Assembly: GCA_028283855.1 (NCBI GenBank)
Contig: JAPWJX010000003.1
Coordinates: 310,001 to 374,000, forward strand
Length of the DNA: 64,000 bases
Direction: 5' to 3'
Origin: Verrucomicrobium sp.
GTDB taxonomy: Bacteria > Verrucomicrobiota > Verrucomicrobiia > Methylacidiphilales > GAS474
Shown here piece by piece: positions 4,240 through 42,871 of this stretch. The notes below the pieces were generated by a model that was given only the letters and a program-made list of their open reading frames with translations, had not been told where the DNA came from and searched no databases. Position 1 is the stretch's first letter. Each line of letters begins with the position of its first letter. The position numbers were made by a program, and so were the translations under genes.

Positions 4240-5016
4240 ATGGGCTACGGCAACTCAGGATCGGTCTTCCGCAGCGTCCTCTTCCAGGCCATCGGGTTCC
4301 TCCTGGTCTTGCTGGCCATGCTGGCCCTCATCACCTGGATCACCGACGGCTTCTCCCAAACGGCCGACGCCGCGGCCCCTCCCGTGGGCGGCGCCCTCCA
4401 CCAGCGGTATGAAGAAGCCGTGAAACTGGCCGAGGCGGGCCAGCGCGAAGAGGCCCTGGCCATCTTCCGCTCCATCCTGGCCGATGAGCCGAAGGCCAAA
4501 GGCTCCCTCTACTGGTCCGGCTTCCTCAACCTGGAGCTGGGCCGGCCGGAGAAAGCGCTGCCCTACCTGGCGCGGATGCGCAAACTCGACCCGGCGGCCT
4601 ACCAGCCCGTCGTCCTCACCATCCAGGCCAACCAGGCCCTGGGCCGCGCCGAGTCCGTCGAGGCCGCGCGCAAGGACCTCCTCTCCCTCCGCAACGGCGG
4701 CAAAACCATCCACGGCCTGACCGACGCGAAGGCCTACCCGCGCGAGCGCTTCTTCCAAAGCCGCGTGGAAATCGACGAGTTCTTCGAGCCCGCGCAGGAC
4801 CCCTACATCGTCTGGGAAGCCGTGCAGCGGGACGCGGAGGGCCACCCCATGCGGGACGTCCTGCTGGCCTACAATCCCGACACCCGGACCTACCTCTTCG
4901 GCGAGAACGTGATCGAAGGCGGCGCGATCAAACAGTTCAGCCTCTACCGCCGTCTCACCGCCCCGCCCGCCTACGTCGACTTCCGCACCTGGGCGATGGA
5001 CAAGATCCTGCAGTAA
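4240..5016 (+). CDS. Membrane-anchored TPR protein
   Basis: This 258-residue protein has one N-terminal membrane helix (about residues 13-37, rich in Leu/Ile) followed by TPR-like helices. Examples are HQRYEEAVKLAEAGQREEAL and LGRPEKALPYLARM, roughly residues 55-150. A C-terminal part with no motif I recognise follows (ending DFRTWAMDKIL). The topology suggests a helix anchored in the inner membrane with the TPR domain in the periplasm. It lies 34 nt after ilvC on the same strand, so it may share that transcript. No link to branched-chain amino acid synthesis is evident. Function is unknown; a scaffold role is typical of such proteins. Confidence 0.75.
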   Translation: MGYGNSGSVFRSVLFQAIGFLLVLLAMLALITWITDGFSQTADAAAPPVGGALHQRYEEAVKLAEAGQREEALAIFRSILADEPKAKGSLYWSGFLNLELGRPEKALPYLARMRKLDPAAYQPVVLTIQANQALGRAESVEAARKDLLSLRNGGKTIHGLTDAKAYPRERFFQSRVEIDEFFEPAQDPYIVWEAVQRDAEGHPMRDVLLAYNPDTRTYLFGENVIEGGAIKQFSLYRRLTAPPAYVDFRTWAMDKILQ

Positions 5017-5026
5017 GGCCGTCCCA

Positions 5027-5054
5027 TTGACTCTTTGAAGCGGGTCGGTTACCT
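5027..5054 (+). promoter_or_regulatory. Candidate sigma-70-type promoter for the eno transcript
   Basis: TTGACT (5027-5032) and TTACCT (5049-5054) are separated by 16 nt. Predicted initiation near 5061 coincides with the first base of the fluoride aptamer. This agreement with an independently recognised RNA element supports the call. Confidence 0.55.
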
Positions 5055-5062
5055 TGCTTCCC

Positions 5063-5148
5063 AGGCAATGGAATCTGCCTGACCCGCTACGCGGGTCGAA
5101 CTGCCGGCTTTGCGCCGGCTGATGACTCCTACCGGAAACGGAGGAGTC

Positions 5149-5151
<3 letters not shown>
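5063..5151 (+). promoter_or_regulatory. Fluoride riboswitch (crcB motif) with Shine-Dalgarno-sequestering platform, upstream of eno
   Basis: The aptamer core matches the fluoride motif. Stem P1 is AGGCA/TGCCT (5063-5067 with 5076-5080) around loop ATGGAATC. An inserted hairpin GACCCGC-TAC-GCGGGTC follows. The stem GCCGGC/GCCGGC leads straight into the hallmark CTGATGACTCCTACC (5119-5133). Loop GGAATC can pair with GACTCC as the pseudoknot, with one A-C mismatch. The platform hairpin pairs ATGACTCC (5122-5129) with GGAGGAGTCAT (5140-5150). This hides the GGAGG ribosome-binding site and the AT of the ATG at 5149. Fluoride binding would hold ACTCC in the pseudoknot and expose the start. Translational activation by fluoride is inferred from this geometry. 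Confidence 0.9.
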
Positions 5152-6829
<1,678 letters not shown>

Positions 6830-6863
6830 GTTATTGTTATAACTATTCGTAGTTTAAGCTCAT

Positions 6864-6891
6864 TTGACACCTGGCTTCGCTCTCTTATCCT
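6864..6891 (+). promoter_or_regulatory. Candidate promoter of glpF
   Basis: TTGACA (6864-6869), 16 nt, TATCCT (6886-6891), in a short AT-rich gap. Expected initiation is about 6897-6900, directly at the ATG at 6901, which would make the mRNA leaderless or nearly so. Confidence 0.55.
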
Positions 6892-6900
6892 TTTATTTCT

Positions 6901-7734
6901 ATGAAATTCACCCCCGGTCAGGAATTCCTTGCAGAGTTATTGGGAACCTTGGTGCTGATTCTTTTCGGCGTCGGTTCCGTTGCCATGGTCGTCCTTTTTG
7001 GCAGCAACCCGCCGATTCCCGGCGAGGTCGTCAAAGGCGGCTACACCAACATCGTCCTGGGCTGGGGTCTGGCGGTGACCTTTGGCGTCTACATCGCGGG
7101 CACGATCAGCGGCGCCCACCTCAATCCGGCGGTGACCATCGCCATGGCCGCCACCAAGCGGTTCCCGTGGTCGAAGGCCTTCCACTACATTCTGGGCCAA
7201 TTCATCGGCGCCTTCCTGGCGGCGGGCCTCGTCTTCGCCGTCTACCATGCCAAGTGGCTCCAGGTCGACCCGAGCCTCGACCACACCACCGGCGTTTTCT
7301 GCACCTTCCCCGCGGTCCCCGGCTTCTGGCCCGGCTTCTTTGACCAGGTCGTGGGCACCGCCCTGCTGGTCGGCCTGATCCTGGCCGTCGTCGACAAGTG
7401 GAACGCCCTCCCCGGCTCCAACATGGCGCCGCTGGTCATCGGCCTGATCGTCGTGGCCATCGGCATCGCCTTCGGCGGCATGCACGGGTACGCGATCAAC
7501 CCCGCCCGCGACCTGGGGCCCCGCCTCTTCGCCGTGGTGGCCGGCTTCACGAACAACGGCCTGACCGACGGCAGCGGCGTTTGGCTCGTTCCCGTCCTCG
7601 GCCCGATCGTCGGCGGCCTCCTGGGCGCCTTTGTCTATGACCTGACCATCGGCTGCGCCCTGGCCAAGGCGAACAAGATCAGCGCCGCCCCCGGGCTGCG
7701 CGCCGACGGCGAAGACCCCTCTCACCGGGGCTAA
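6901..7734 (+). CDS. glpF: Aquaglyceroporin (glycerol facilitator family)
   Basis: A 277-residue MIP-family channel with six predicted helices and both pore motifs: HLNPAV (NPA at 75-77) and AINPARDLGPRL (NPA at 200-202). Asp204 after NPAR is the residue that marks glycerol-transporting members rather than strict water channels. It mediates passive glycerol or small-polyol uptake across the inner membrane. The gene stands alone between the eno and crcB units and ends at a shared terminator. No Shine-Dalgarno sequence is seen, consistent with the predicted near-leaderless start. Substrate is inferred from the Asp signature; no glycerol kinase gene is present. Confidence 0.93.
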   Translation: MKFTPGQEFLAELLGTLVLILFGVGSVAMVVLFGSNPPIPGEVVKGGYTNIVLGWGLAVTFGVYIAGTISGAHLNPAVTIAMAATKRFPWSKAFHYILGQFIGAFLAAGLVFAVYHAKWLQVDPSLDHTTGVFCTFPAVPGFWPGFFDQVVGTALLVGLILAVVDKWNALPGSNMAPLVIGLIVVAIGIAFGGMHGYAINPARDLGPRLFAVVAGFTNNGLTDGSGVWLVPVLGPIVGGLLGAFVYDLTIGCALAKANKISAAPGLRADGEDPSHRG

Positions 7735-7751
7735 TTCCGCCTGACGCTTCC

Positions 7752-30583: not shown

Positions 30584-31663
30584 ATGTCCCTGCCGCGCAA
30601 ATCCCGTTACCTCAAGCTGGCCCCGAAGGGCGCGCCCCGCCCCGCCCCGGCGCCGAAGCGCGGCCCCCTGGTCATGGTCGACGCGGGCCCGATCCGCGCC
30701 GCCGCGACGAAGAAATACCGCCAGGCCCAGACCCGCTTTGCCGACACGCAGAAGGCCCTGTCCCGCTTCCAGGAAAAGGATAAGCCCACGTTCGAGCGCT
30801 GGCTCCAGCAGACCTTCCGCGGCCTGGTGGGAGAATTGCGCGCCGCCCAATCGAAGCTGGCCGACCTGCGGGAGCTGGTCTTCGAGGTGGAGACGCGCAC
30901 CTGGTTCCGCAACCAAAGCTGCGCCGCCGCCTACCGCGACATCCTGGACCGCAAGGCCCGCCGCCAAAACGGCCAGGACGATCCCGAGCCGCCCGACGAC
31001 CTGGAGGAGGCCCTCCGCTCCCGCATGAAAGCCGACGAGGAGGAAGCCGAGGCCGAGCGCGCGGAGGCGGAGGCCGCCGCCTCCTCCCTCCCCTCCCGCG
31101 CGGGCAAAAAACAGCTCCCGCCCGACCGGGAGGCGCGGCTGAAGGCCGCCTACCGCTCCATGGCCCGCCGCCTCCACCCGGACCGCCACGGGGAAAAGGC
31201 GATCACCCCGCAGATGCGGGAGCGGTGGCACGCCGCGCAGGCCGCCTACCTGGCGGGCGACGTGGAGCTGCTCGAATCGCTTGAAACCCTCTGCCTGGAC
31301 GAGGAGGACGTCGACGGCGAGACGCCCGTCTCCTACATCCTGGCCCGCACGGGGCGGCTCCTGGCCTCCATCACCCAGCTCAGCGTCAAGGCGCAGAACT
31401 GCAAGAAGGACCCGGCCTGGGCTTTCTCCACCCTGGAGGAGGGGCCGGAGCTTTCCCGCATCGAGCGGCTGATGGCCAAGACGCTGCCCGTGCAGCTGAA
31501 AACCGCGCGCGGCGAGATCGCCGAGCTGGAGGCGAAGATCGCCGGCTGGCGCGACGATGCGGAACGCTTTTACCCCGGCTTCAAGGAAGCCCATTCCGGC
31601 AAAAAAGGCGCGCCGATCAAACCCGCCGGCCCTCCCCAGGGCAAGGCCCGCGCGAAAGCTTAA
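30584..31663 (+). CDS. J-domain protein with coiled-coil flanks
   Basis: This 359-residue protein is predicted cytoplasmic. A basic N-terminus (PRKSRYLKLAPKGAPRPAPA) and a helical, charged region (about 45-180, including EEEAEAERAEAEAAASS) precede a J-domain-like segment. There, LKAAYRSMARRLHPDRHGEK contains the HPD motif that stimulates DnaK-type chaperones (about residue 200). A second helical half ends with a Lys/Pro-rich tail. Placement of the J domain in the middle is unusual; canonical DnaJ has it at the N-terminus and zinc fingers that are absent here. It is divergent from the tol operon. The client is unknown. Confidence 0.75.
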   Translation: MSLPRKSRYLKLAPKGAPRPAPAPKRGPLVMVDAGPIRAAATKKYRQAQTRFADTQKALSRFQEKDKPTFERWLQQTFRGLVGELRAAQSKLADLRELVFEVETRTWFRNQSCAAAYRDILDRKARRQNGQDDPEPPDDLEEALRSRMKADEEEAEAERAEAEAAASSLPSRAGKKQLPPDREARLKAAYRSMARRLHPDRHGEKAITPQMRERWHAAQAAYLAGDVELLESLETLCLDEEDVDGETPVSYILARTGRLLASITQLSVKAQNCKKDPAWAFSTLEEGPELSRIERLMAKTLPVQLKTARGEIAELEAKIAGWRDDAERFYPGFKEAHSGKKGAPIKPAGPPQGKARAKA

Positions 31664-32904
31664 CGGACCAGGGAGAGGGCGTCGCCCGCCTCGGCAGCCT
31701 GGCCGGGCCGATCAAAAACCACTCCCGCCAACGCCTGCGGTTCCAAGCGCGGCAGCTCGATCCGTTCCCGGCGCGGCGGCGCCGTCGCCTCCATCGCCTC
31801 CCGGGCCGCGTCGAGGCCCCGGCATTCCGCCGCCAGGCGCGTCAGGAGCGGGCGCGTCTCCGGCTCCGCCTTGGCGGCCAGGGCCTGCCACCGCTCCTTC
31901 GGCCATCGGTCGCTCACCGGCTGGAGCCACTCCTGCGCGATCCGCTGAAGAAGGGCGCGGCCGTGGACCGGGCTGGGCTCCAGGCCCATCTTCGTCCGCC
32001 CTTCCGGGTCACCGTAGAATTCGAGGAGGTCGCCGTAGACGGCGGGGAGCGCCTCGGCAAAGAACCGCTCCCGCTGGGCGGGGGAGAGCTTGGCCGCGGC
32101 GCTCTCTTTCAGCTCGTAGAGCGCCTCGGCGGCGGCGCAGTTTTCCTCCGTAGCCAGGGGATAGTCGGGATGGGCGGGGCGGCCGGAGAGCGGCCCTTCG
32201 AAGGCGGCGCGGGCTTCCTCCGGCGTGGCGGGGAGCGCCTTCCAGCCGGAGGCGCTGGCGTGGACGAGCTGGTGGAGACAGGCCTGGATCTCGGCGTATT
32301 GGAGGCCGTAGACCTCCGGCTCCTCGCCATTCTTTCCGCTGGCGATATGGCGGAGCTTGTCATGCCGCGCCGCCGTTTCCTCCGGCGTTTCCTCGGCGGC
32401 CAGGATGGCCTCCAGCTCCGGCCCGTGGCCGTAGCGGACGGAGGAGCCCCAGGTCTCCTCCTTGCCCGGGCCGGAGAGGAGGAGGCGGTCGAGGGTGTGG
32501 ACGCGACACTGGAGGGCGTGGAGCGCCTCGTGCGTCAGGCCGGTGGCGGCGCCGCGGGAATCGGCGGGCAGGACGCCGACGACGACCGCCGGGGCGAGCG
32601 CGATCCGCAGGTCGCCCAGGCAGGAAAAGGAGCCGTTGAGGTTGATCGGCGCCATGTCGGCCACCATGTTGTAGGCTTCGCCCGGCGCGCCGATTTCCAA
32701 CCGGCGGAAGGCGGTGAACTTCTTCTCGTTCGCCGCCGCCTGCCCTTCCAGGGTGAAGAAGCGGACGGGGACGGAGAGGATGATGTCCGGATCCCGCCGC
32801 AGGCCGCGCACCGCGCCGGGGTCGATCAGCTCCGCCGACGTCGCCGCGCCCGCTTTAAGTAAAGCGGGCAAAGCAAAAGCGGGGCTGTCGGGCAGGTTGG
32901 GCAT
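31660..32904 (-). CDS. HExxH-family paralogue A (putative zinc-dependent hydrolase)
   Basis: This 414-residue protein carries THEALHAL with a zincin-type HExxH at residues 125-129. It shares several blocks with the three tandem genes at 38261-42871. These are GHGPELEAILAAEETPEETA (a conserved acidic residue, Glu165, could be a third metal ligand), YAEIQACLHQLVHA, and EALPAVYGDLLEFYGDPEGR followed by KMGLEPSPVH. I cannot assign it to a named peptidase family; zinc binding and proteolysis are inferences. Unlike its paralogues it has no clear signal peptide. It overlaps the J-domain gene tail to tail by 4 nt. Confidence 0.7.
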   Translation of the reverse strand: MPNLPDSPAFALPALLKAGAATSAELIDPGAVRGLRRDPDIILSVPVRFFTLEGQAAANEKKFTAFRRLEIGAPGEAYNMVADMAPINLNGSFSCLGDLRIALAPAVVVGVLPADSRGAATGLTHEALHALQCRVHTLDRLLLSGPGKEETWGSSVRYGHGPELEAILAAEETPEETAARHDKLRHIASGKNGEEPEVYGLQYAEIQACLHQLVHASASGWKALPATPEEARAAFEGPLSGRPAHPDYPLATEENCAAAEALYELKESAAAKLSPAQRERFFAEALPAVYGDLLEFYGDPEGRTKMGLEPSPVHGRALLQRIAQEWLQPVSDRWPKERWQALAAKAEPETRPLLTRLAAECRGLDAAREAMEATAPPRRERIELPRLEPQALAGVVFDRPGQAAEAGDALSLVR

Positions 32905-32973: not shown

Positions 32974-34737
32974 TTAGCCGCCGAAGTTGCCCGCCCGCCA
33001 GAGCCGGGCGTAGAGGCCGTCCCGGGCCAGAAGCTCCGGCCCCGTGCCGCTCTCGACGATCTTTCCTCCCTCCATGACGTGGATCACGTCGGCGTGGTGG
33101 ATCGTGTTCAGGCGGTGGGTGACGATGAGGGTCGCCGGGCCTTTCATGAGGGCGCGGAGCGTCTCCAAAATCTCGGACTCGGTCTCCGGGTCGAGGGCGC
33201 TCGTCGGCTCGTCCAGGAGGAGGATGGGGGAGCCCTTCAGGAAGGCGCGGGCGATGCCGATGCGCTGGCGCTGCCCGCCGGAGAGGCGGACGCCGCGTTC
33301 GCCCACGGGCGTGTCGTAGCCCTGGGGAAGCTTATTGATGAACGCGTCGGCCTGGGCCCGGCGGGCGGCCTCCCGGATCTCGCTCTTCCTGGCCCCCAGC
33401 TTCCCGTAGGCGATGTTCTCCTCCACCGTGCCGGAGAGAAGGATCGTCTCCTGCAGCACCATGGCGATCTGCTCCCGGACCGATTTCTTGCTCACCTCCC
33501 GCAGGTCGGCGCCGTCGATGCGGACGGTGCCGGAGGTGGGGTCGTAAAAGCGCGCGATGAGGGAGAGGACGGTCGTCTTCCCCGCGCCGGTCCCGCCGAC
33601 GAGGGCGACGGTCTGGCCGGGGCGGACCTCCAGGTCGATCCCCTGGAGGATCGGGTGGCCCTCCTCGTAGGAAAAGGCGACCTGCTCCAGCTCGACGCGG
33701 CCCGCCACGCCGCGCAGGGCGGGAGCGTTCGGCTTCTCCGGCACGGTGTCCTCCGCGTCGAGGACCTCGAAGACCCGCTCCATGCCCGCCGCCGCCCCCT
33801 CCATCGCCCAGGCGGTGTAGGAAAGCTGTTCCAGAGGCTGGTAGAGCGTGGCCAGATAGGAAAGGAAGACGTAGAGGTCGCCCACGCCGATCTGCCCGGC
33901 CAGGACGTGCCGGACGCCCAGGTAGAGGATCGCCGCCGTGCCCGCCGACGTGATGAGGCCGACGACGAGGCCGGAAAGGGAATTGGTGAGGGTCAGCTTC
34001 AGGTTGGCGCCGTAGCTCTCCCGCGCCTCGCGGACGAACTGGCCGACCTCGTATTCTTCCCGGTTGAAGGCCTGGACCACGCGGATGGCCCCCAGCCCCT
34101 CGCTGGCGGCGGCCAGCACGTCGCTCTCCTCCTTCTGCAGGTCGCTGCTCTCCCGCCGGATGCGGCCCGCGTAGAAGGCGATGGCCGCCCAAAGAAACGG
34201 CGCGACGGCCAGGGAAACCCAGGCCAGCTGCCGGTCCATGGAGTACATGACGGCGAAGGCGCCGCCCAATGTCACCAGCGCGCCGACAACGGAGGCGAAG
34301 CCCCGGTTGAAGAAGGTCTGCACGGCCTGCGCGTCGTAGGCGACGCGGTAGGTGGAGTCGGCGCTGCGCCGCCGGTCGTGGAAGTGGAGGGGGAGGCGCT
34401 GGAGGCAGGCGTAGAGCCGGGTGCGCAGTTCCAAGAGCGCCCGCAGGCCGATGCGGGTCATCAGGTAGTTCTGCCCCACCCCGGCCAGGCCGCCCAGCAG
34501 GTAGATGACGACGACGCCCAGGGTGGCGACGAGGACCTCCTCTCCCGTGGTGAGGGCGGTGTCCCGCCAGGGCACGGCGTGGTCGTGGGCGGTGGGCAGG
34601 AGGGTGTCCAGGATCCACTTCACCGGCCACGGCTTAAGAAGGCTTAAGGCGACGTTGAGGACCAAAAGCCCCAGCGCCACGCCGATCTGCGGCAGCTGCT
34701 CGCGGTAGCACCCGATGACGCGGCGGTAGAGGCCCAT
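32974..34737 (-). CDS. ABC exporter (fused membrane and ATPase domains)
   Basis: This 587-residue half-transporter of the MsbA/bacterial multidrug exporter type has six helices in residues 15-310. A nucleotide-binding domain follows with Walker A LVGGTGAGKTTVLS, Q-loop MVLQETILLSGTVEENIAYG, signature RLSGGQRQRIGIARAFLKG, Walker B ILLLDEPTSALDPE and H-loop VTHRL. It would act as a homodimer in the inner membrane. It lies 7 nt downstream of the glycosidase-glycosyltransferase fusion, so the pair probably makes and exports a glycan or glycolipid. The substrate cannot be read from sequence. Confidence 0.92.
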   Translation of the reverse strand: MGLYRRVIGCYREQLPQIGVALGLLVLNVALSLLKPWPVKWILDTLLPTAHDHAVPWRDTALTTGEEVLVATLGVVVIYLLGGLAGVGQNYLMTRIGLRALLELRTRLYACLQRLPLHFHDRRRSADSTYRVAYDAQAVQTFFNRGFASVVGALVTLGGAFAVMYSMDRQLAWVSLAVAPFLWAAIAFYAGRIRRESSDLQKEESDVLAAASEGLGAIRVVQAFNREEYEVGQFVREARESYGANLKLTLTNSLSGLVVGLITSAGTAAILYLGVRHVLAGQIGVGDLYVFLSYLATLYQPLEQLSYTAWAMEGAAAGMERVFEVLDAEDTVPEKPNAPALRGVAGRVELEQVAFSYEEGHPILQGIDLEVRPGQTVALVGGTGAGKTTVLSLIARFYDPTSGTVRIDGADLREVSKKSVREQIAMVLQETILLSGTVEENIAYGKLGARKSEIREAARRAQADAFINKLPQGYDTPVGERGVRLSGGQRQRIGIARAFLKGSPILLLDEPTSALDPETESEILETLRALMKGPATLIVTHRLNTIHHADVIHVMEGGKIVESGTGPELLARDGLYARLWRAGNFGG

Positions 34738-34744
34738 GGGAAAG

Positions 34745-37264
34745 CTACTCCTTGCGCACGGCCTGGAGGCCGGCGCGGATGGCGGCGACGTGGACTCCCT
34801 CCGCCACCCGGTGGCGCAGGCGCAGGCCGTGCAGGAGCCAGAAGAAGAGGAAGAGCCCCAGGGTCCCGGCGAAGAACGGCGCCACTCTCCAGGAGGTGAC
34901 GGTCAGCGCGGTGCCGAAAAGGATCAGGCCGCCGACGATCAGCTTGGAAAAGGTGCTGGCGACGAGGAAATTCCCCACCCGGGTGAGCCGCCGCCCGTGC
35001 GGGTAGATCTCCGTCATGGTGCGCAGGCGCAGGTTCCACCAGCGGCTGGCGAAGAGGTGGAGGTCCCAATCGGTCCAGCCGGTGTCCGGGGAGTAGTTCC
35101 AGCCCTCCGCGTCGAGCAGGCGCTCCACCTCGTGCAGCAGCTCGGTCCGCTCGCGGCCGCCCTCGCTCCAAAAGGTGAGGTGCCCGGCGCTCCAGAAGCC
35201 GCTGGAGGCGTGGGGCTCCTTCTCCGGCGCGGCGATGACGGCGGGGGGCGTGCGTTTGCCCCGCAGCCAGGTGAAGTAGCGCGCCCAGCCGCGCCGCAGC
35301 GGCTGCGCCACCGCCAGGTAGAAGAGGAGGAGGCGGGAGCGGACGCCGTCGAAGCGCGGCTCGATGCGCGCGCGCGTCATGTAGGAGAGCCCGGCAAGGA
35401 CGGTGAGGCCGAAGAGGATGAGCGGCACCAGCCGCAGCGGCGGCAGCGGAATGGAGAGGACCAGGACCATGGCCGCCAGGACCACCCATTCCAGGCTGCC
35501 GAAGAGCTGGAGGAAGGGATTCTCGTTGCGCGGGTAGACGGACTGGAAGAAGCCGGTGCCGAAGATGCCGTGGTAGACGACGGGGCGCAGGAAGAGGGGG
35601 TCCATCCGCACCTGGGTGTAGACGCGCCCGTGCCAGATGGCCGAGCCGGTGGTGCCGAAGTAGTTGAGGTGCTTGTAGCGCAGGAGGGCCTCCGCCTCCC
35701 CGTAGCCGGTCTGCTGGCCGAAGTAGGCCTTCACGGTGAAGCGCCGGTAGTGCCAGACGACGGCCGCCGGGGAGAAGCCGATCTGGTAGCCGCGCTGCAT
35801 GAGGCGCCAGCAGAGGTCGACGTCGTCGCCCGCCTTGCGGTATTCGGGATCGAAGCCGCCGATCTCCTCCAGCGCGCTCTTGTAATAGGCCATGTTGCAG
35901 CCGGGGACGTGCTCCGCCACGGTGTCGGTCAAAAGGACGTGGCTGGGGGAGCCGGGCGCGGCGGCCACGGTGGCCTGCACCCAGTCGGTCGCGGGAGGGG
36001 AGATGTTCGGCCCGCCGACGGCCTTGAAGCCGCCGCGGAGCATCGCCTGGACGAGGAAATAGAGCCAGTCCTTGTCCGCCATGCAGTCGGAATCGGTGAA
36101 GGCGACGATCTCGCCGGTGGCCGCCGCGATGCCGACGTTGCGCGCCACGGAGAGGCCCTTGTTCTCCTGCCGGATGTTCCGCACGCGGGGGAATTGCGCG
36201 GCGATGGCCTGAGTGTCGTCGGTCGAGCCGTCGTCGACCAGGATCACCTCGTAATCGGGGTAGTCGAGGGCCTCCAGGGAGACGAGGCAGTCCCGCAGCG
36301 TCTTGGCCCCGTTGTAGGAGCAGACGACGACGGAGACGCGCGGCGCCTGCGCCAGGGGGAAGCGGTCGTGGAGGGGACGGTCGCCGCCGCCCAGGATCGG
36401 CTGGAGGGCGCGGTAGGCCTCCTTCGGCGCGCGGTCCTTCGTCACGACGCCGAAGGCCCAGTCCTCGATGTCGACGCCGTCGGTGAACCACTCGTCGGTC
36501 CAGGAGAAGATGATCGTCCCGGCCAGGCCCGCCTTGAAGACGGTGTTCACGTGCCGCTTCAGCAGCTCCGCCTGCTCCGCCTGCGGGTGGCGGATGGTGT
36601 CCATGCCGAATTCGCTTAAGATGAGCGGCTTTTCCCCCGCCAGGTTCTGCAGGCGGGCCAGGTAGTTGGCCAGGTCCTTTTCCTCGTGCAGGTAGACGTT
36701 GTAGGAAAGGAAGTCGACGCCGGCGGGGAGGAGATACTCGGTCGGCGGGAAATTGGCGTAGGTGGCCAGCGCGCCGGGATCGTGCTTCTTCACCAGGGCG
36801 ACGAGGCTGTCGAGGAACGCCTCCATCTTCCGCGGCCCGTACCAGCGGACCAGGTCGGGCGGAATCTCGTTGTCGATGAAGTAGCCGAGGAGGGCCGGGT
36901 GCCCGGCGTTCTGCCGGACGGCGGAAATCAGGTTCTCCCGGATCTGGGAGAGGACGGCGCGGTCGTCCAGGAAGAGGACGCGCTTGACCCACGGCAGGGT
37001 GACGAGGACGCGCAGCCGGTGGCGCGCCGCCTGGTCCAGGAACCACGCCGGGGGCGGGTGGTAGATGCGCAGGGTGTTGACCCCCATCGCCGTCATCAGC
37101 TGGAAATCGCGTTCCACCTCCTCCGGCGCGGGCAGGTGGGGGCCGCCCTCCGTGCGGGGGCGGAAGGGGCCGTACGTCGCCCCCTGGATGAGGAATTTCT
37201 TCTCCCCCTCGTAGAGGAACTTCGCCCGCGCGACGATGCGCGGAAGGGAGGGGGCGTCAGACAT
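34745..37264 (-). CDS. Fusion of clan GH-A glycosidase domain and GT2 glycosyltransferase
   Basis: This 839-residue protein has two enzymatic parts. Residues about 15-300 form a TIM-barrel related to GH2 catalytic domains. It retains the acid/base pair in GYFIDNEIPPDL and a nucleophile candidate in LILSEFGMDT. Residues about 325-560 are a family 2 glycosyltransferase (VSVVVCSYNGAKTLRDCLVS, ILVDDGSTDDT, AFTDSDCMADKDW, GDDVDLCWRLMQRG). Hydrophobic helices at about 590-630, 650-680 and 765-805 anchor it in the membrane. ATG at 37264 was preferred to an upstream start that adds a Leu/Arg tail. Its stop is 7 nt before the ABC exporter. Function in exopolysaccharide or glycan export is inferred. 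Confidence 0.88.
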   Translation of the reverse strand: MSDAPSLPRIVARAKFLYEGEKKFLIQGATYGPFRPRTEGGPHLPAPEEVERDFQLMTAMGVNTLRIYHPPPAWFLDQAARHRLRVLVTLPWVKRVLFLDDRAVLSQIRENLISAVRQNAGHPALLGYFIDNEIPPDLVRWYGPRKMEAFLDSLVALVKKHDPGALATYANFPPTEYLLPAGVDFLSYNVYLHEEKDLANYLARLQNLAGEKPLILSEFGMDTIRHPQAEQAELLKRHVNTVFKAGLAGTIIFSWTDEWFTDGVDIEDWAFGVVTKDRAPKEAYRALQPILGGGDRPLHDRFPLAQAPRVSVVVCSYNGAKTLRDCLVSLEALDYPDYEVILVDDGSTDDTQAIAAQFPRVRNIRQENKGLSVARNVGIAAATGEIVAFTDSDCMADKDWLYFLVQAMLRGGFKAVGGPNISPPATDWVQATVAAAPGSPSHVLLTDTVAEHVPGCNMAYYKSALEEIGGFDPEYRKAGDDVDLCWRLMQRGYQIGFSPAAVVWHYRRFTVKAYFGQQTGYGEAEALLRYKHLNYFGTTGSAIWHGRVYTQVRMDPLFLRPVVYHGIFGTGFFQSVYPRNENPFLQLFGSLEWVVLAAMVLVLSIPLPPLRLVPLILFGLTVLAGLSYMTRARIEPRFDGVRSRLLLFYLAVAQPLRRGWARYFTWLRGKRTPPAVIAAPEKEPHASSGFWSAGHLTFWSEGGRERTELLHEVERLLDAEGWNYSPDTGWTDWDLHLFASRWWNLRLRTMTEIYPHGRRLTRVGNFLVASTFSKLIVGGLILFGTALTVTSWRVAPFFAGTLGLFLFFWLLHGLRLRHRVAEGVHVAAIRAGLQAVRKE

Positions 37265-37357: not shown

Positions 37358-38197
37358 ATGCCCGAGCCGGTCGCCCTCCGCAGCGGAAAAGTGCGGGACC
37401 TCTACGCCTACGGGGAGGAGCTGTGGATCGTCGCCAGCGACCGGGTTTCCGCCTTCGACGTGGTCCTGCCCACCCCGATCCCGGACAAGGGCCGCCTCCT
37501 AACCCGGCTTTCCCGCCACTGGTTCGACCTCCTCCGCCCCCTTTGCCCGAACCACGTCCTGGGCTACGACCTGCCCGCCGGCGCCGGCCGGCCGGAATGG
37601 GAGGGCCGCCTGACCCGCGCCCGCCGGTGCGAGGTGATCCCCCTGGAATGCGTCGTCCGCGGCTACGTGGCCGGGAGCGGCTGGAAGGAATACCGGGAGC
37701 GCGGCACCGTCGGCGGCCACGCCGTGCCCCCCGGCCTGCGGGAAGCCGGGGCCCTGCCGGAGCCCCTCTTCACCCCCTCCACCAAGGCGGAGGCGGGCCA
37801 CGACGAGAACCTGACGGAGGCCGGGGCCCGCGCCCACGTGGGCGACGCGCTCTACGAGCGGCTGCGGGAGAAGACCCTGGCGCTCTACCGCTGGGCCGCC
37901 GCCTACGCCGCCCCGCGCGGCCTGATCCTGGCCGACACGAAGTTCGAGTTCGGCCTGACTCCCCAGGGAGAGCTGCTCCTCATCGACGAGGCCCTGACGC
38001 CGGACAGCTCCCGCTTCTGGCCCGCCGACGGCTACCGCCCCGGCGGTTCCCCCCCCAGCTTCGACAAGCAATTCCTGCGCGATTACCTGGAAACCCTCTC
38101 TTGGGACAAGCGCCCGCCCGGCCCTATTCTGCCTCCGGAAATCGTGGCCCAAACGGCCGCCCGCTACCGGGAAGCCGTCGAGCGGCTGGGCGCTTAA
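37358..38197 (+). CDS. purC: Phosphoribosylaminoimidazole-succinocarboxamide synthase
   Basis: This 279-residue SAICAR synthetase of purine synthesis joins CAIR and aspartate with ATP. Signatures are ALRSGKVRDLYAYGEELWIV, ASDRVSAFDVVLPTPIPDKG, PLECVVRGYVAGSGWKEY, FTPSTKAEAGHDENLT, ILADTKFEFGL and the ATP/Mg segment LIDEALTPDSSRFW. It is the longer type found in Gram-negatives and yeast. ATG follows TTAGGAAAG. It stands alone among non-purine genes; no purine riboswitch was seen in the 93-nt gap upstream. Confidence 0.96.
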   Translation: MPEPVALRSGKVRDLYAYGEELWIVASDRVSAFDVVLPTPIPDKGRLLTRLSRHWFDLLRPLCPNHVLGYDLPAGAGRPEWEGRLTRARRCEVIPLECVVRGYVAGSGWKEYRERGTVGGHAVPPGLREAGALPEPLFTPSTKAEAGHDENLTEAGARAHVGDALYERLREKTLALYRWAAAYAAPRGLILADTKFEFGLTPQGELLLIDEALTPDSSRFWPADGYRPGGSPPSFDKQFLRDYLETLSWDKRPPGPILPPEIVAQTAARYREAVERLGA

Positions 38198-38260: not shown

Positions 38261-39880
38261 ATGATCGCGTCCAAAGCTTTTCTCAAAGGTATCGCCGCTG
38301 AACTGATCCTGGCCTCCGGCCTCGGCGCCGGGCTTCCTGCCCGCGCCCAGCAGGCCGCCCCCGTCGCGGCCCCCCGCACCTTCTCCCTCATCGATCCCCT
38401 CTCCGTCCGCGGCCCCGTCGCCCCGGGCGACGCCCTGAAGAAATTCGAGCGGGCCGCCGGATTCGGCCACCCCTCCTTCACGGCCAACGCGGCGGAGCTG
38501 GTGGCCCTGGGCTTCCGCGGCTGGCCCGTGGCGGGCGTCCACAGCGATCCGGACCTCCTTCTCCAGACGCCGGTCGACTTTTCCGCCACCGTCCTGCCGG
38601 GGCGCCCCGGCGCCTCGATCGCCGGATCCCCCCTCTTCCCGCCCCAGGCCCGCAATCCCTTCAGCACGGCCTACGGCGTCGCCAAGGAAAAGCTCTTCAA
38701 GCCTTCCGAGATCCAGGCCACCCTCCCGCCGCCGAACCAGGAACTTGCCGCCGACACCCTCTTTTCCTCCCGGCTGGCCGTCCGCGCCATGATCCTGGAG
38801 CGGGACCGAATCGAAAGCCTCCTCTTCCCCGTCACGGCGAAGACGGTCGGCGCGTCGAAGGAGTTCGGCCACGGCCCCGCGCTGGACGCCGTCCTCTCCG
38901 TCGGGGAGACGAAGGAGCAGACCGCCGCGCGGCAGGAAATCCTGGAAAACCGGGCCCTGGGCCATTTCAGCCAGGAAGCCGCCGAAATGACCCCCCTCCT
39001 CCAGGCGGAAATCGAAGTCTCCCTTCACGACCTCCTCTCCCGCGCCATCTCCACGGGCACGTGGAAGCGGGTCCCGGAAACGCGGGAAGAACTCGCCGCC
39101 GCCGTCTACAACGCCGTCGACGCCGGGCGCCCCGCCGGGACGCCGCCGGAAGCGATCGACACCTTCCTGGCCACGCCGCGCGGCCAGGCCCTGCGGGCCG
39201 AGTTCCCCGCGCCGCCGCTGGAAAACTTCCTCCTGAAGGCGACGTTCTCCATGCTGCCGAAGAACCGCGCCTCCCTTTACGACAAGGTCCTGCCCGACGC
39301 CTACGGCGACCTGCTGGAGCTTTACGGCGACGCCGACGGCCGCACCCGCCTGGGCCTGGAAACGGGCAAGCCCCACGCCGTCTCCTTCGCCTTCCACCTG
39401 CTCCACGCCGGAGAGGGCGAGCCCCAGACCCTGACGCCGGACGCCTGGCGCCACCTGGCCTCCAAGGCGGAGCCGGAAGCCTTTGAAACCCTCTGCCGCC
39501 TGGCCGTCCGCCACCGCCAGCCGGAGGCCCTCGGCGCGCTCCTGGCCACCGCCGGGCAGCCCGGCCACGCCCTGACCCCGGAGCAGAAGGCCGTCCTCCT
39601 GGACGGCGCGATCGCCATCTCCCTCCAATCCTCCGACGCCAACGAGCTGGCGGGCCGCCGCATCGTCCTGCAGCTTCTCGACGCCGGGGCCGACCTCGAG
39701 AAGCTCCCCCCGCCCGCCGTCCAGCAGCCGCCGCTGGAAAACCTCCCGCGCGGCGAACAGGAGGAAGAGCGGCCCGACCCCCGCTTCCGCCTTTACCAAA
39801 TCCGCCTGACGCCGGACGCCTTCCGCCGCGCCCCCGCTCAAGCCCCCGCCCACGACGCCGCCGTGGCGCTGGCCAAGTAA
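38261..39880 (+). CDS. HExxH-family paralogue B, catalytic motif lost
   Basis: This 539-residue protein has a signal-like N-terminus (MIASKAFLKGIAAELILASG to LPARAQ). It shares family blocks ANAAELVALGFRGWPVAGV, GHGPALDAVLSVGETKEQTA, AEIEVSLHDLL followed by TWKRVPETREELAA, VLPDAYGDLLELYGDADGR followed by LGLETGKPH, and a longer C-terminus than its paralogues. Where the others have HEALH/HEGLH this one reads RLAVR (in SSRLAVRAMILERDRIESLLF: His, Glu and His all replaced). It may be a pseudoenzyme, perhaps a partner or regulator of the active copies. It is the first gene of a three-gene run, 13 nt before the next. Confidence 0.7.
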   Translation: MIASKAFLKGIAAELILASGLGAGLPARAQQAAPVAAPRTFSLIDPLSVRGPVAPGDALKKFERAAGFGHPSFTANAAELVALGFRGWPVAGVHSDPDLLLQTPVDFSATVLPGRPGASIAGSPLFPPQARNPFSTAYGVAKEKLFKPSEIQATLPPPNQELAADTLFSSRLAVRAMILERDRIESLLFPVTAKTVGASKEFGHGPALDAVLSVGETKEQTAARQEILENRALGHFSQEAAEMTPLLQAEIEVSLHDLLSRAISTGTWKRVPETREELAAAVYNAVDAGRPAGTPPEAIDTFLATPRGQALRAEFPAPPLENFLLKATFSMLPKNRASLYDKVLPDAYGDLLELYGDADGRTRLGLETGKPHAVSFAFHLLHAGEGEPQTLTPDAWRHLASKAEPEAFETLCRLAVRHRQPEALGALLATAGQPGHALTPEQKAVLLDGAIAISLQSSDANELAGRRIVLQLLDAGADLEKLPPPAVQQPPLENLPRGEQEEERPDPRFRLYQIRLTPDAFRRAPAQAPAHDAAVALAK

Positions 39881-39893
39881 AAAGGCCCGCCCC

Positions 39894-41372
39894 ATGGACC
39901 GCCACACCCTGCTTAAGAAGCTGGCCGTACAGGCCACGCTCTTCGCCGGGCTGGTGAACCTCCAGGGCACCCGGCGGCCCGCTCCCGCGCCGACGGCCTC
40001 CCTGCACCTTGCCGCCCACCGCTGGAGCCAGCCGATGCCGCCCCTGCCCGCGGCCAAGCTGGCGCGGCTGCGCGGGGAGGACGCGGTCAACCGGGCCTTC
40101 CTCCGCACCCTCGGCGCGGAAGGCGGGACGGAGGCGGAGACGACGGCCAACACCGCCGACCTCGTCGCCCTCGGCTTCGGCTCCTGGCCGCCGCCCGGCC
40201 TCGACACGGACCCCTCCCTCCTCCGCCCCCGCGCGGCCTGGAACTACGCCTCCTACCGGCCCGGCGTCGATCCGGCGCAGGAAGGCGGCCTGACCATGGC
40301 TCCCGTTTCCGTCCCCCCTTTCCTGCGCGACCCCTTCGCCAACGTCTTTCCCATCGTCACGCCGACCTACTTTTCCCCCGCGAAAATCCAGCTCCAGCTG
40401 CCGCCGCTCGACACCCCCTACCACCTGCGGGAGGCCCGCTCGGTCGAGGCGCACGAGGGGCTGCACGCCGTCTTCGCCGAGCGGCAGATCCTCCTCGACC
40501 TCCTTTTCCCCGACCGCGACAAGGGCGCCCCCCTTTCCGCCACCAAGAGCCACGGCCTGGGCCCCCGGCTGGAGGCGCTCCTGGCCTCCCAGGAAACGGC
40601 GGGAAAAACCGCCGCCCGCCATCAACGGTTCGAGCGCGAGCTCTCCGGCGCCTCCAACGACACGGCCCTGGCCGAATATCCCCTCCTCTACAACGAGCTG
40701 CGCTCCTACCTGGGCCAGGTGGTGATGGACGGCGTCTCCAGCGGCCGCTGGGACGGCCTGCCCCGCGACAAGAAGGAGCTGTGGGCGGCCGTCTACGCCA
40801 CGACCGGCGGCACCTGGTTCGACCCGGAGGAGCGGGACGAGGTCAGCCGCTTCCTGGGCAGTCCGGAGGGCGCCTCGACGCTGCGCCGCTTCCCCGCCCT
40901 CCCCCTGGACATCCAGGAGCGGATCCTCACCGCCGACCTCGGCAAGCTTTCCCTGCCCAACCGCGTCCGCTTCTACGCGGAAGTCCTCCCGGAAATCTAC
41001 GGCGAGATCCTGGAAGACCTCGGTGACGCGCGCGGCCTGGCAAAGATGGACCTTCCGCCGAGCCCCGTCCACGCGATGGCCTTCCTCCACCACCTCATCC
41101 TGGACCGGCCGGAAAGCCCGGACGCGTGGAAGAAGAAGGACTGGGACGCCATGGCCGCCAAGGTGGAGCCGGAAACCGTCCAGCGGCTGGCCGACCTCTC
41201 CCAGGCCTTCGGCCGCCCGGAAGCGCTGGAAAGCCTGATGACCCTGCGCCAGGCCCGGCTCCCCGCCGCGCCCGCCAACCGCGGCCTCTTCACCGCCCTC
41301 TCCGCCTCCTTCAACGAAACCCCGCGCCAAGAGCCCTCCCTGCCCCGGCGCGAAGAAGGCCGCGCGCGATGA
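39894..41372 (+). CDS. HExxH-family paralogue C (putative zinc-dependent hydrolase)
   Basis: This 492-residue protein begins MDRHTLLKKLAVQATLFAGL, a probable signal peptide or membrane anchor. The HExxH motif is AHEGLHAV (His187, Glu188, His191), followed by ERQILLDLLF. Shared blocks are ANTADLVALGFGSWPPPGL, GLGPRLEALLASQETAGKTA, YNELRSYLGQVVMDGVSSG followed by WDGLPRDKKELWAA, and VLPEIYGEILEDLGDARG followed by KMDLPPSPVH. The N-terminal LLKKLA...LFAGL resembles that of paralogue D. The family is unassigned. It is translationally coupled to D (ATGA overlap). Confidence 0.72.
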   Translation: MDRHTLLKKLAVQATLFAGLVNLQGTRRPAPAPTASLHLAAHRWSQPMPPLPAAKLARLRGEDAVNRAFLRTLGAEGGTEAETTANTADLVALGFGSWPPPGLDTDPSLLRPRAAWNYASYRPGVDPAQEGGLTMAPVSVPPFLRDPFANVFPIVTPTYFSPAKIQLQLPPLDTPYHLREARSVEAHEGLHAVFAERQILLDLLFPDRDKGAPLSATKSHGLGPRLEALLASQETAGKTAARHQRFERELSGASNDTALAEYPLLYNELRSYLGQVVMDGVSSGRWDGLPRDKKELWAAVYATTGGTWFDPEERDEVSRFLGSPEGASTLRRFPALPLDIQERILTADLGKLSLPNRVRFYAEVLPEIYGEILEDLGDARGLAKMDLPPSPVHAMAFLHHLILDRPESPDAWKKKDWDAMAAKVEPETVQRLADLSQAFGRPEALESLMTLRQARLPAAPANRGLFTALSASFNETPRQEPSLPRREEGRAR

Positions 41373-42871
41373 TCCGCCGCCCCGCCCTCCTCAAACGGCT
41401 CGCGCTGGAAGGCGCGCTCCTGGCCGGCCTCGGCGGCCTGGCGGGGGATTTCTCCCCGCCCCGGCCCCTCCCCGCGGCCGCCCCCGCCTTCTCCCTCACG
41501 CCGCGCGTCCCCGCCGGCGGCCCCCCGCCCTTCGCGGAACGGGAAAAGGCCTTCCGCGCCGCGCTGGGCATCGGAAAGGAAAAGACGGCGCAGGGCCTCA
41601 CCGACACCGCCGAGCTGCTCCGCCTCAGCTTCGGCGTCTGGCCCGCCCCGGGCGTCGACTTCCAGCCGGAAATCGTCCGCCACGTGCCGGTGCGGACCCT
41701 CTCCGCCTTCGACGGCACCTGGAAGACGGTGGAAGCCGCCACCAGCGGCGCGGGCTCCTTCAACGAGATCTACCGCAACGTCGCCTCCGTCTTCTACCCC
41801 CAGGCCGCCGCCCAGCTCTTCCAGCCGCCGGAGATCGACGCCCGGCTCCTGCCGCTCGACACGCGGGACAACGCCCTGCTCGACATGAGCGTGGAAGGGC
41901 ACGAGGCGCTCCACGCCCTCTTCCGGCAGCAGCAGATCCTCCTGGACTACCTTTACGACCGGCCCAGCCTCGACCGCCTCGGCCCCGACGCCATGGGCCG
42001 CTCCGAGCTGATCGGCTACGGCCCGGAAATGGACGCCCTGCTGGCCTCCGGCGAGACGCCCGCGCAGACCTCCGCCCGCCACCGCGCGCTCTTCCAGGCG
42101 CTGGGGGACGGCAACCCCTTCACCCAAACCGCCGCACAGGGGGACGACGTCCTCAAGACCTACCCCGCCCTCTACACGGAGATGCAGTCCTACGCCCACC
42201 AGATCGTCGCGGGGGGCGTCTCCTCCGGCGCGTGGCGGCGGGTGCCCCGCACGAAGGAGGAAGTCTGGGCCGCCTTCGCCAACGCCATCGGCGGCCTGCC
42301 GCCCGGCGGAAAGGACGAGGTGAGCGCCTTCCTGGAAAGCGAGGCCGGGGAAAAGGCCCGCGCGGCCTTCCCCGCCCCGCCCGACGTCATCGGCCAGCGC
42401 TGGCTGCGGGACGACGTCGGCTTCCTGCCCGCGGACAAGAAATCCCTCTTCTACTCCCAGGTGCTGCCGCGCCTTTACGGCGACCTGTTGGAAGCGTACG
42501 GCGACCCGCAGGGCCGCGCCAAAATGGGGCTGCCGTCCGGCCAGGCCGCCACCCTTTCCTTCGCCACCCACGTCGTGCGGGCGGGCGAGGGCGGCGACCA
42601 GGATTGGACGCCGGAAACGTGGCGGAAGATGGCCGCGCAGGTCGATCCCCAGACCCTTCCCCGCATGGCCGCGCTGGCGGTGGCCCACCACAACCCGGCG
42701 GCGGTGGAGGCGCTCCTCGACACGCCCGCCGGAAAGGCGGCGCTGGGCTCCGCGGAAAAGGACGCCCTCTTAAAAACCGCCTTCCAGGTCATGCTCCGCA
42801 GCGCCGACGCAAACCGCCGGGAAGACCTGCGGACCATGGACCTGCTGGCCGCGCGCGGCGCGGCGCGCTAG
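41369..42871 (+). CDS. HExxH-family paralogue D (putative zinc-dependent hydrolase)
   Basis: This 500-residue protein has an N-terminal hydrophobic stretch (LLKRLALEGALLAGLGGLAG), so export is likely. The HExxH motif is GHEALHAL (His178, Glu179, His182) followed by RQQQILLDYLY. Shared blocks are TDTAELLRLSFGVWPAPGV, GYGPEMDALLASGETPAQTS, YTEMQSYAHQIVAGGVSSG followed by WRRVPRTKEEVWAA, and VLPRLYGDLLEAYGDPQGR followed by KMGLPSGQ. It is the last gene of the tandem run. Substrate and role are unknown; tandem duplication with one dead copy suggests a diversifying secreted system. Confidence 0.72.
   Translation: MIRRPALLKRLALEGALLAGLGGLAGDFSPPRPLPAAAPAFSLTPRVPAGGPPPFAEREKAFRAALGIGKEKTAQGLTDTAELLRLSFGVWPAPGVDFQPEIVRHVPVRTLSAFDGTWKTVEAATSGAGSFNEIYRNVASVFYPQAAAQLFQPPEIDARLLPLDTRDNALLDMSVEGHEALHALFRQQQILLDYLYDRPSLDRLGPDAMGRSELIGYGPEMDALLASGETPAQTSARHRALFQALGDGNPFTQTAAQGDDVLKTYPALYTEMQSYAHQIVAGGVSSGAWRRVPRTKEEVWAAFANAIGGLPPGGKDEVSAFLESEAGEKARAAFPAPPDVIGQRWLRDDVGFLPADKKSLFYSQVLPRLYGDLLEAYGDPQGRAKMGLPSGQAATLSFATHVVRAGEGGDQDWTPETWRKMAAQVDPQTLPRMAALAVAHHNPAAVEALLDTPAGKAALGSAEKDALLKTAFQVMLRSADANRREDLRTMDLLAARGAAR

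Follow-up and report, generated by a model that had tools for sequence, protein, structure and literature searches.

What does a membrane protein that joins a glycosidase-like barrel to a glycosyltransferase in one chain do, and is it functionally tied to the ABC exporter encoded directly after it? We addressed these questions for a locus in the window, by which we mean the whole stretch of 64,000 nucleotides analysed here, taken from a 2.56-Mb draft assembly. The open reading frame at 34745-37264 on the minus strand begins with ATG and encodes 839 residues, in which a clan GH-A barrel (residues ~8-295) is followed by a GT2 domain (306-535), two helices, a long helix, an alpha/beta domain and two further helices. 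Pfam and the best 25 NCBIfam matches returned only GT2-type and GH-A barrel families for this protein, and a whole-chain AlphaFold2 model built from 29 aligned sequences had a mean pLDDT of 87.9 and a pTM of 0.82. The fusion stops 7 nt (34738-34744) before the start of a half-size ABC exporter with a membrane domain and an ATPase (32974-34737, minus strand, 587 aa; assigned by Pfam, profiles and trees), and the coordinates agree with the spacing given in a sequence-only reading of this DNA.

Chance joining, a frameshift or an assembly artefact could be ruled out as the origin of the fusion, because full-length relatives exist. Among 60 genomes (source genome counted), 46 carry it as a single frame of nearly full length, and in eight it is broken into pieces, often at contig ends; it was not seen in six, five of which had a GT2-type match only. 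A GH-A barrel fused to a GT2 domain with membrane helices, as first read from the sequence, is real by the Pfam matches, the AlphaFold2 model and these relatives, and the fusion is conserved and not ordinary. Among open-licence PMC papers, we found no title or abstract on the fusion protein. At G059:C17, G029:C50 and L046, the fusion is split into at least two frames or carries one internal TAG.

The barrel (36380-37243, minus strand) matched Pfam Glyco_hydro_2_C at 25.3 bits (cut-off 21), and a model predicted for the barrel alone had a pLDDT of 94.4. Enzymes of clan GH-A have a (beta/alpha)8 fold, with an acid/base Glu that follows an Asn at the end of beta-4 and a nucleophile Glu on beta-7. 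The predicted model contains the eight strands in order, with N132-E133 (36866-36871, minus strand) at the end of beta-4 and E218 (36611-36613, minus strand) on beta-7; the fold (Z ~30) and the placement of these residues are those of the clan. Conservation and predicted secondary structure mark N132-E133 as the presumed acid/base site, while conservation and the alignment to LaGH157 mark E218 as the presumed nucleophile. Conservation was assessed in 127 distinct relatives (at least 250 bits), mostly from Verrucomicrobiota, that were collected by likeness to the window protein or, for 80 loci, using two GT2 peptide patterns and then tblastn with the whole protein. N132 and E133 are kept in all 125 relatives that span the site, E218 is kept in 127 of 127, and several aromatic residues are also invariant (125/125 or 127/127) across Verrucomicrobiota and a few Planctomycetota. 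The Asn-Glu pair and the nucleophile-type Glu noticed earlier are therefore retained in every relative spanning the sites. Family assignment did not bring out a non-catalytic carbohydrate-binding module, the result that would have spoken against the sequence-only reading; judged from its fold and conserved Glu residues, the barrel is unlike a binding module, and we infer that it is active as an enzyme.

Assignment to a family within the clan is less sharp. The best profile match among solved structures was LaGH157 (E 5e-24), an entry titled GH157 and solved with laminari-oligosaccharides; GH2 (E 7e-14), GH158 and glucanosyltransferase entries ranked after it. In the profile alignment, E218 pairs with the residue that differs between wild-type LaGH157 and its E224A mutant. 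Structure comparison, for which Foldseek was also run, gave Z scores of 31.6 for GH157 and 31.0 for GH2 beta-glucuronidases; the profile thus favours GH157 and the structure ties both. The barrel shares its fold with both groups over the whole length, with the catalytic Glu aligned, but unlike these enzymes it is fused to GT2. GH2 enzymes carry sandwich domains N-terminal to the barrel; here the barrel begins at about residue 8, leaving no such domains, and the further domains of GH2 enzymes are also missing. Identity is ~16-22% across the GH157 and GH2 structural matches and ~18% to GH157, and therefore the substrate cannot be read from the sequence.

The GT2 domain (35660-36349, minus strand, residues ~306-535) matched Pfam Glycos_transf_2 (E 4e-34) and contains the DDGS, DSD and AGDD motifs, with D391 and D393 present in 127 of 127 relatives; by profile, motifs and conserved residues it belongs to the GT2 family. 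It had been described as processive-looking, a description that did not hold, as QxxRW was not found in the GT2 domain of the window protein. PMC10237404 defines processive membrane GT2 synthases of the BcsA type by Q(Q/R)xRW, a motif that the window protein does not contain. The letters QxxRW occur in four of the 127 relatives, but within the barrel and not in GT2. The closest curated likeness of the GT2 half was MftF, the mycofactocin glycosyltransferase, at 170 bits, yet this lies under the model's cut-off of 280 bits. The C-terminal part (34775-35518, minus strand) is predicted to contain helices at residues 591-603, 612-631, 771-790 and 792-830 and a small alpha/beta domain (~695-770), for which no Pfam match was found.

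The position of these helices bears on the side of the membrane at which the barrel lies. In a hydropathy scan, the part ahead of residue 300 was free of membrane-like stretches in 126 of 127 sequences, and in the single exception (L115) the early hydrophobic stretch sits inside the barrel. Moreover, six short forms of 684-715 aa (L156, L160, L161, L061, L063 and L064) contain both domains and no membrane-like stretch anywhere. GT2 enzymes draw on cytosolic sugar nucleotides and no helix precedes GT2, and therefore the barrel and GT2 probably both lie in the cytosol. The idea that a glycan is edited during export does not fit these data if editing outside the membrane is meant; with no helix before the barrel-GT2 unit and with six helix-free short forms, editing would be cytosolic and would precede export.

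We then considered how widely the fusion occurs. Of the 387 genomes surveyed in the phylum, 37 carried it at E 1e-60, all from one class, and three of 294 genomes from the phylum of a Phycisphaerae record also had it. Matches gathered here include Methylacidimicrobium (L129) and Methylacidiphilales (L134). With a profile of the barrel alone and up to the best six candidates scored per genome, 38 places reached at least 281 bits, and every one of them was the fusion; they lie in 37 of the 387 genomes. These are the same places as those found with the fusion, with open frames of at least 688 aa; the next five places (82-146 bits, frames of 499-633 aa) are other proteins that do not fit the fusion. 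Among the candidates scored in the 387 genomes, the barrel subfamily is found only as the fusion; the searches scored the best 2, 3 or 6 candidates per genome, at which depth weak extra copies may be missed. A search of 72,556 plasmid records with the whole protein at E 1e-20 did not find a plasmid-borne fusion, and the nine records that matched did so over the GT2 part only. Directly adjoining the fusion in one locus is another GH-GT fusion (L112:8555-11914, plus strand, 1120 aa), with weak GH18, polysaccharide deacetylase and GT2 matches. Genome G502 belongs to the same phylum as the Phycisphaerae record; after its fusion come a different ABC ATPase and a protein of 1023 aa that has glycosidase-core and CBM9-like matches (L153:7750-8973 and 4682-7750, both minus strand).

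What does the adjoining exporter resemble? Its top models were of the MsbA type, at 441 and 449 bits, both under their cut-offs; the former, TIGR02203, requires more than 602 bits. The other MsbA candidate in the source genome scored 440.2 bits, against 440.6 for the exporter next to the fusion, and therefore the MsbA cut-off decides little in this phylum. Close downstream of this other MsbA-like exporter are two genes, one of the heptosyltransferase family and one for a small GT2 protein. That the exporter beside the fusion is simply MsbA is weakened by the presence of this second candidate near a heptosyltransferase-family gene. Scores with models of ChvA and NdvA, the transporters that partner the glucan synthase Cgs, were also under the cut-offs (TIGR01192, 301.5 bits with more than 585 needed; NF010178, 378.3 bits with more than 733 needed).

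Pairing of the two genes was examined in 158 loci, from which 31 duplicates and then 16 loci with less than 1.2 kb downstream were removed, leaving 127 and 111, respectively. The exporter adjoins the fusion on the same strand in 35 of the 111 distinct loci retained, and adjacency varies with identity (23 of 27 loci at 56% or more, 9 of 70 at 47-56%, and 3 of 14 below). Across the phylum, scoring up to the best three candidates per genome and using a cut of 440 bits chosen after the scores were seen, we found the exporter in 18 of 387 genomes, all fusion-positive, with the genes adjacent in eight and on different contigs in ten. At this cut, set afterwards, the exporter subfamily is found only in fusion genomes among the 387 surveyed. 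Fisher's test for co-occurrence gave p = 4e-21, a value that ignores relatedness; part of the co-occurrence reflects shared descent. Of the 37 fusion genomes, 18 lack an exporter at this level, 12 of family f11 and six of family f15. The f11 genomes concerned have short forms only, in frames of 688-745 aa. The f15 fusion proteins, one from each of the six genomes, have membrane helices yet no exporter, and therefore helices alone do not predict an exporter and the pairing is not universal. The six short forms named above are of family f11; they have no predicted membrane helices, and no exporter accompanies them in the surveyed genomes. One genome (G371) carries both a short and a long fusion, with the exporter beside the long form only.

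Two trees were built, each from 43 chosen exporters; the exporter of L142, whose gene is split in the record, was omitted from both. In the first tree, all 15 exporters next to or near a fusion fell into one clade of 16 (99/99), the sixteenth being that of Chthoniobacter flavus, in which the fusion is on another contig. The second tree took eight of the ten exporters lying apart from the fusion; of the 13 exporters over E 1e-105 in fusion-less genomes it took 11, as the other two had no locus. One clade (100/97) held ten linked or near exporters, eight from genomes with the genes apart and the C. flavus exporter, whereas all 11 from fusion-less genomes fell outside it. The exporter beside the G347 fusion scores 394 bits, under the 405 bits of a fusion-less genome, but despite this score both trees place it in the fusion clade. 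Gaps of 5 nt in G371 and 79 nt in G347 separate fusion and exporter in these distant lines. On the sequences compared here, the exporter belongs to a branch of its own among MsbA-like transporters. Of the coupling between fusion and exporter proposed earlier, the part that stands is a distinct exporter subfamily in half of the surveyed fusion genomes; it does not extend to the other 18 of 37.

We also looked at neighbouring genes. The divergent gene purC (SAICAR synthetase, 37358-38197, plus strand) also adjoins the fusion in some relatives, and we regard this as synteny and claim no functional link. Four paralogues flank the block of fusion, exporter and purC (31660-32904, minus strand; 38261-39880, 39894-41372 and 41369-42871, plus strand); they share 29-37% identity with one another, three contain HEALH or HEGLH and one contains neither, and Pfam scans of the first three gave no match. 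In ten regions around exporters lying apart from the fusion (L230 and L232-L240), a GT-B-like family occurs within ~3.5 kb of the exporter in six (L230, L233, L234, L237, L239 and L240). Members of this family also follow the fusion-adjacent exporter in L116, L142 and L157 and lie near it in L154/L231, and the source genome has two homologues, at two places away from the fusion. The label GT-B-like rests on Pfam Glyco_trans_1_2 matches of 19.5 and 22.6 bits (cut-off 25), other members being unmatched. In four of the ten regions (L230, L232, L233 and L234), a protein of 195-198 aa directly follows the exporter; by profile, the L232 protein is a hexapeptide acetyltransferase (top model WbbJ, 84 bits, cut-off 243), to which the other three are 59-63% identical by BLAST. 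The source genome gave no convincing match to this acetyltransferase, the best being 23.6 bits. A class III aminotransferase, presumably resembling HemL, is found upstream of the fusion in many Chthoniobacterales-type loci (26 upstream members in the cluster, two of them Pfam-checked). In 16 loci, a membrane-type protein that appears GT-C-like by eye lies downstream of the fusion (for example, L092:8589-9902, plus strand); the one that was scanned had no Pfam or NCBIfam match.

Taken together, we give an even chance to the reading that the fusion is a glycan enzyme of the cytosolic face that synthesises and edits, with a dedicated exporter. GT2 would extend a glycan, either free or attached to a lipid, by adding sugar, and the barrel would cleave or, perhaps more likely, transglycosylate the same beta-linked chain, thereby setting its length, branching it or closing it. 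The adjoining exporter would then carry the finished product across the inner membrane. That the barrel acts on the GT2 product, that this product is a beta-glycan and that the steps follow in this order are what we infer.

An alternative that we consider unlikely, but the least so of those weighed here, is that GT2 attaches a single sugar or a small number of sugars to a membrane lipid, that the barrel strips incorrect or unused sugars from it in proof-reading or turnover, and that the MsbA-like exporter flips the resulting glycolipid; the product would then be a lipid rather than a chain. The highest scores of the exporter with MsbA-type models, though below cut-offs, the missing QxxRW and the few helices in the protein are consistent with such a role; on the other hand, the best profile match of the barrel is a GH157 enzyme solved with laminari-oligosaccharides and thus of a chain-acting type, and the six helix-free short forms retain both domains. 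We hold it distinctly less probable that the fusion and the exporter work in separate pathways and adjoin through chance or shared ancestry, the exporter being an ordinary MsbA or drug exporter. In favour of this view, 76 of the 111 distinct loci have no exporter of the subfamily next to the fusion, 18 of 37 fusion genomes show none, and most genomes with both genes are of related orders. However, an equally MsbA-like exporter lies elsewhere in the genome near heptosyltransferase-family and small GT2 genes, exporters from fusion genomes group in a clade of their own, and adjacency recurs in the distant lines G371 and G347.

Least probable, in our view, is that the barrel has degenerated into a module that binds the acceptor or serves GT2 as a scaffold, its catalytic residues being idle. 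Binding-only barrels tend to lose the catalytic pair, but here both Glu, the preceding Asn and several aromatics are invariant, although no member of the barrel subfamily turned up apart from GT2, as would be the case for a structural subunit. If the synthesise-and-edit reading is correct, the locus would be a compact two-gene system in which point mutations could probe how a chain is edited ahead of export, and it would suggest that this phylum, which has acid-loving methanotrophs among its members, makes an envelope glycan not yet described.

The principle of coupled glycan synthesis and cutting already has precedents. GH17 belongs to clan GH-A. The pseudomonad GH17-GT2 'BcsA-like orphan' (NdvB) likewise has a TIM-barrel glycosidase N-terminal to GT2 in a membrane protein. 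There, the GH17 domain is predicted to be periplasmic, with a signal peptide and three helices before GT2, five after it and a QRFRW motif (PMC10237404). In contrast, the fusion described here has no helix before GT2 and no QxxRW, and the hydropathy scan did not place the barrel behind helices.

The closest working model is Agrobacterium Cgs, where a single membrane protein, whose soluble domains are all cytoplasmic, carries out synthesis, cyclisation and length control (PMC10901819); its authors' view is that length control makes the glucans fit the transporter. PMC10901819 and PMC10834661 describe a separate transporter beside Cgs that prefers smaller glucans. Like the fusion, Cgs combines a glycosyltransferase with domains that cut or rearrange glycans in one membrane protein and is served by a separate transporter, but the fusion is built from other GT and GH families, is much smaller and has its GH domain first. 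Trimming or length control, suggested earlier for the locus, is plausible for the barrel because Cgs does so. The locus has the same logic, realised by other families. We tentatively suggest, as a possibility somewhat short of even, that the fusion represents a second, independently evolved Cgs-like machine of Verrucomicrobiota and a few Planctomycetota, in which a barrel subfamily, present solely as a cytosolic editing module welded to GT2, finishes a beta-glycan, perhaps cyclic or of set length, that an ABC subfamily of its own would export. If so, synthesis and cutting in one protein at the cytosolic face, with a matched exporter, would have arisen more than once from unrelated enzyme families.
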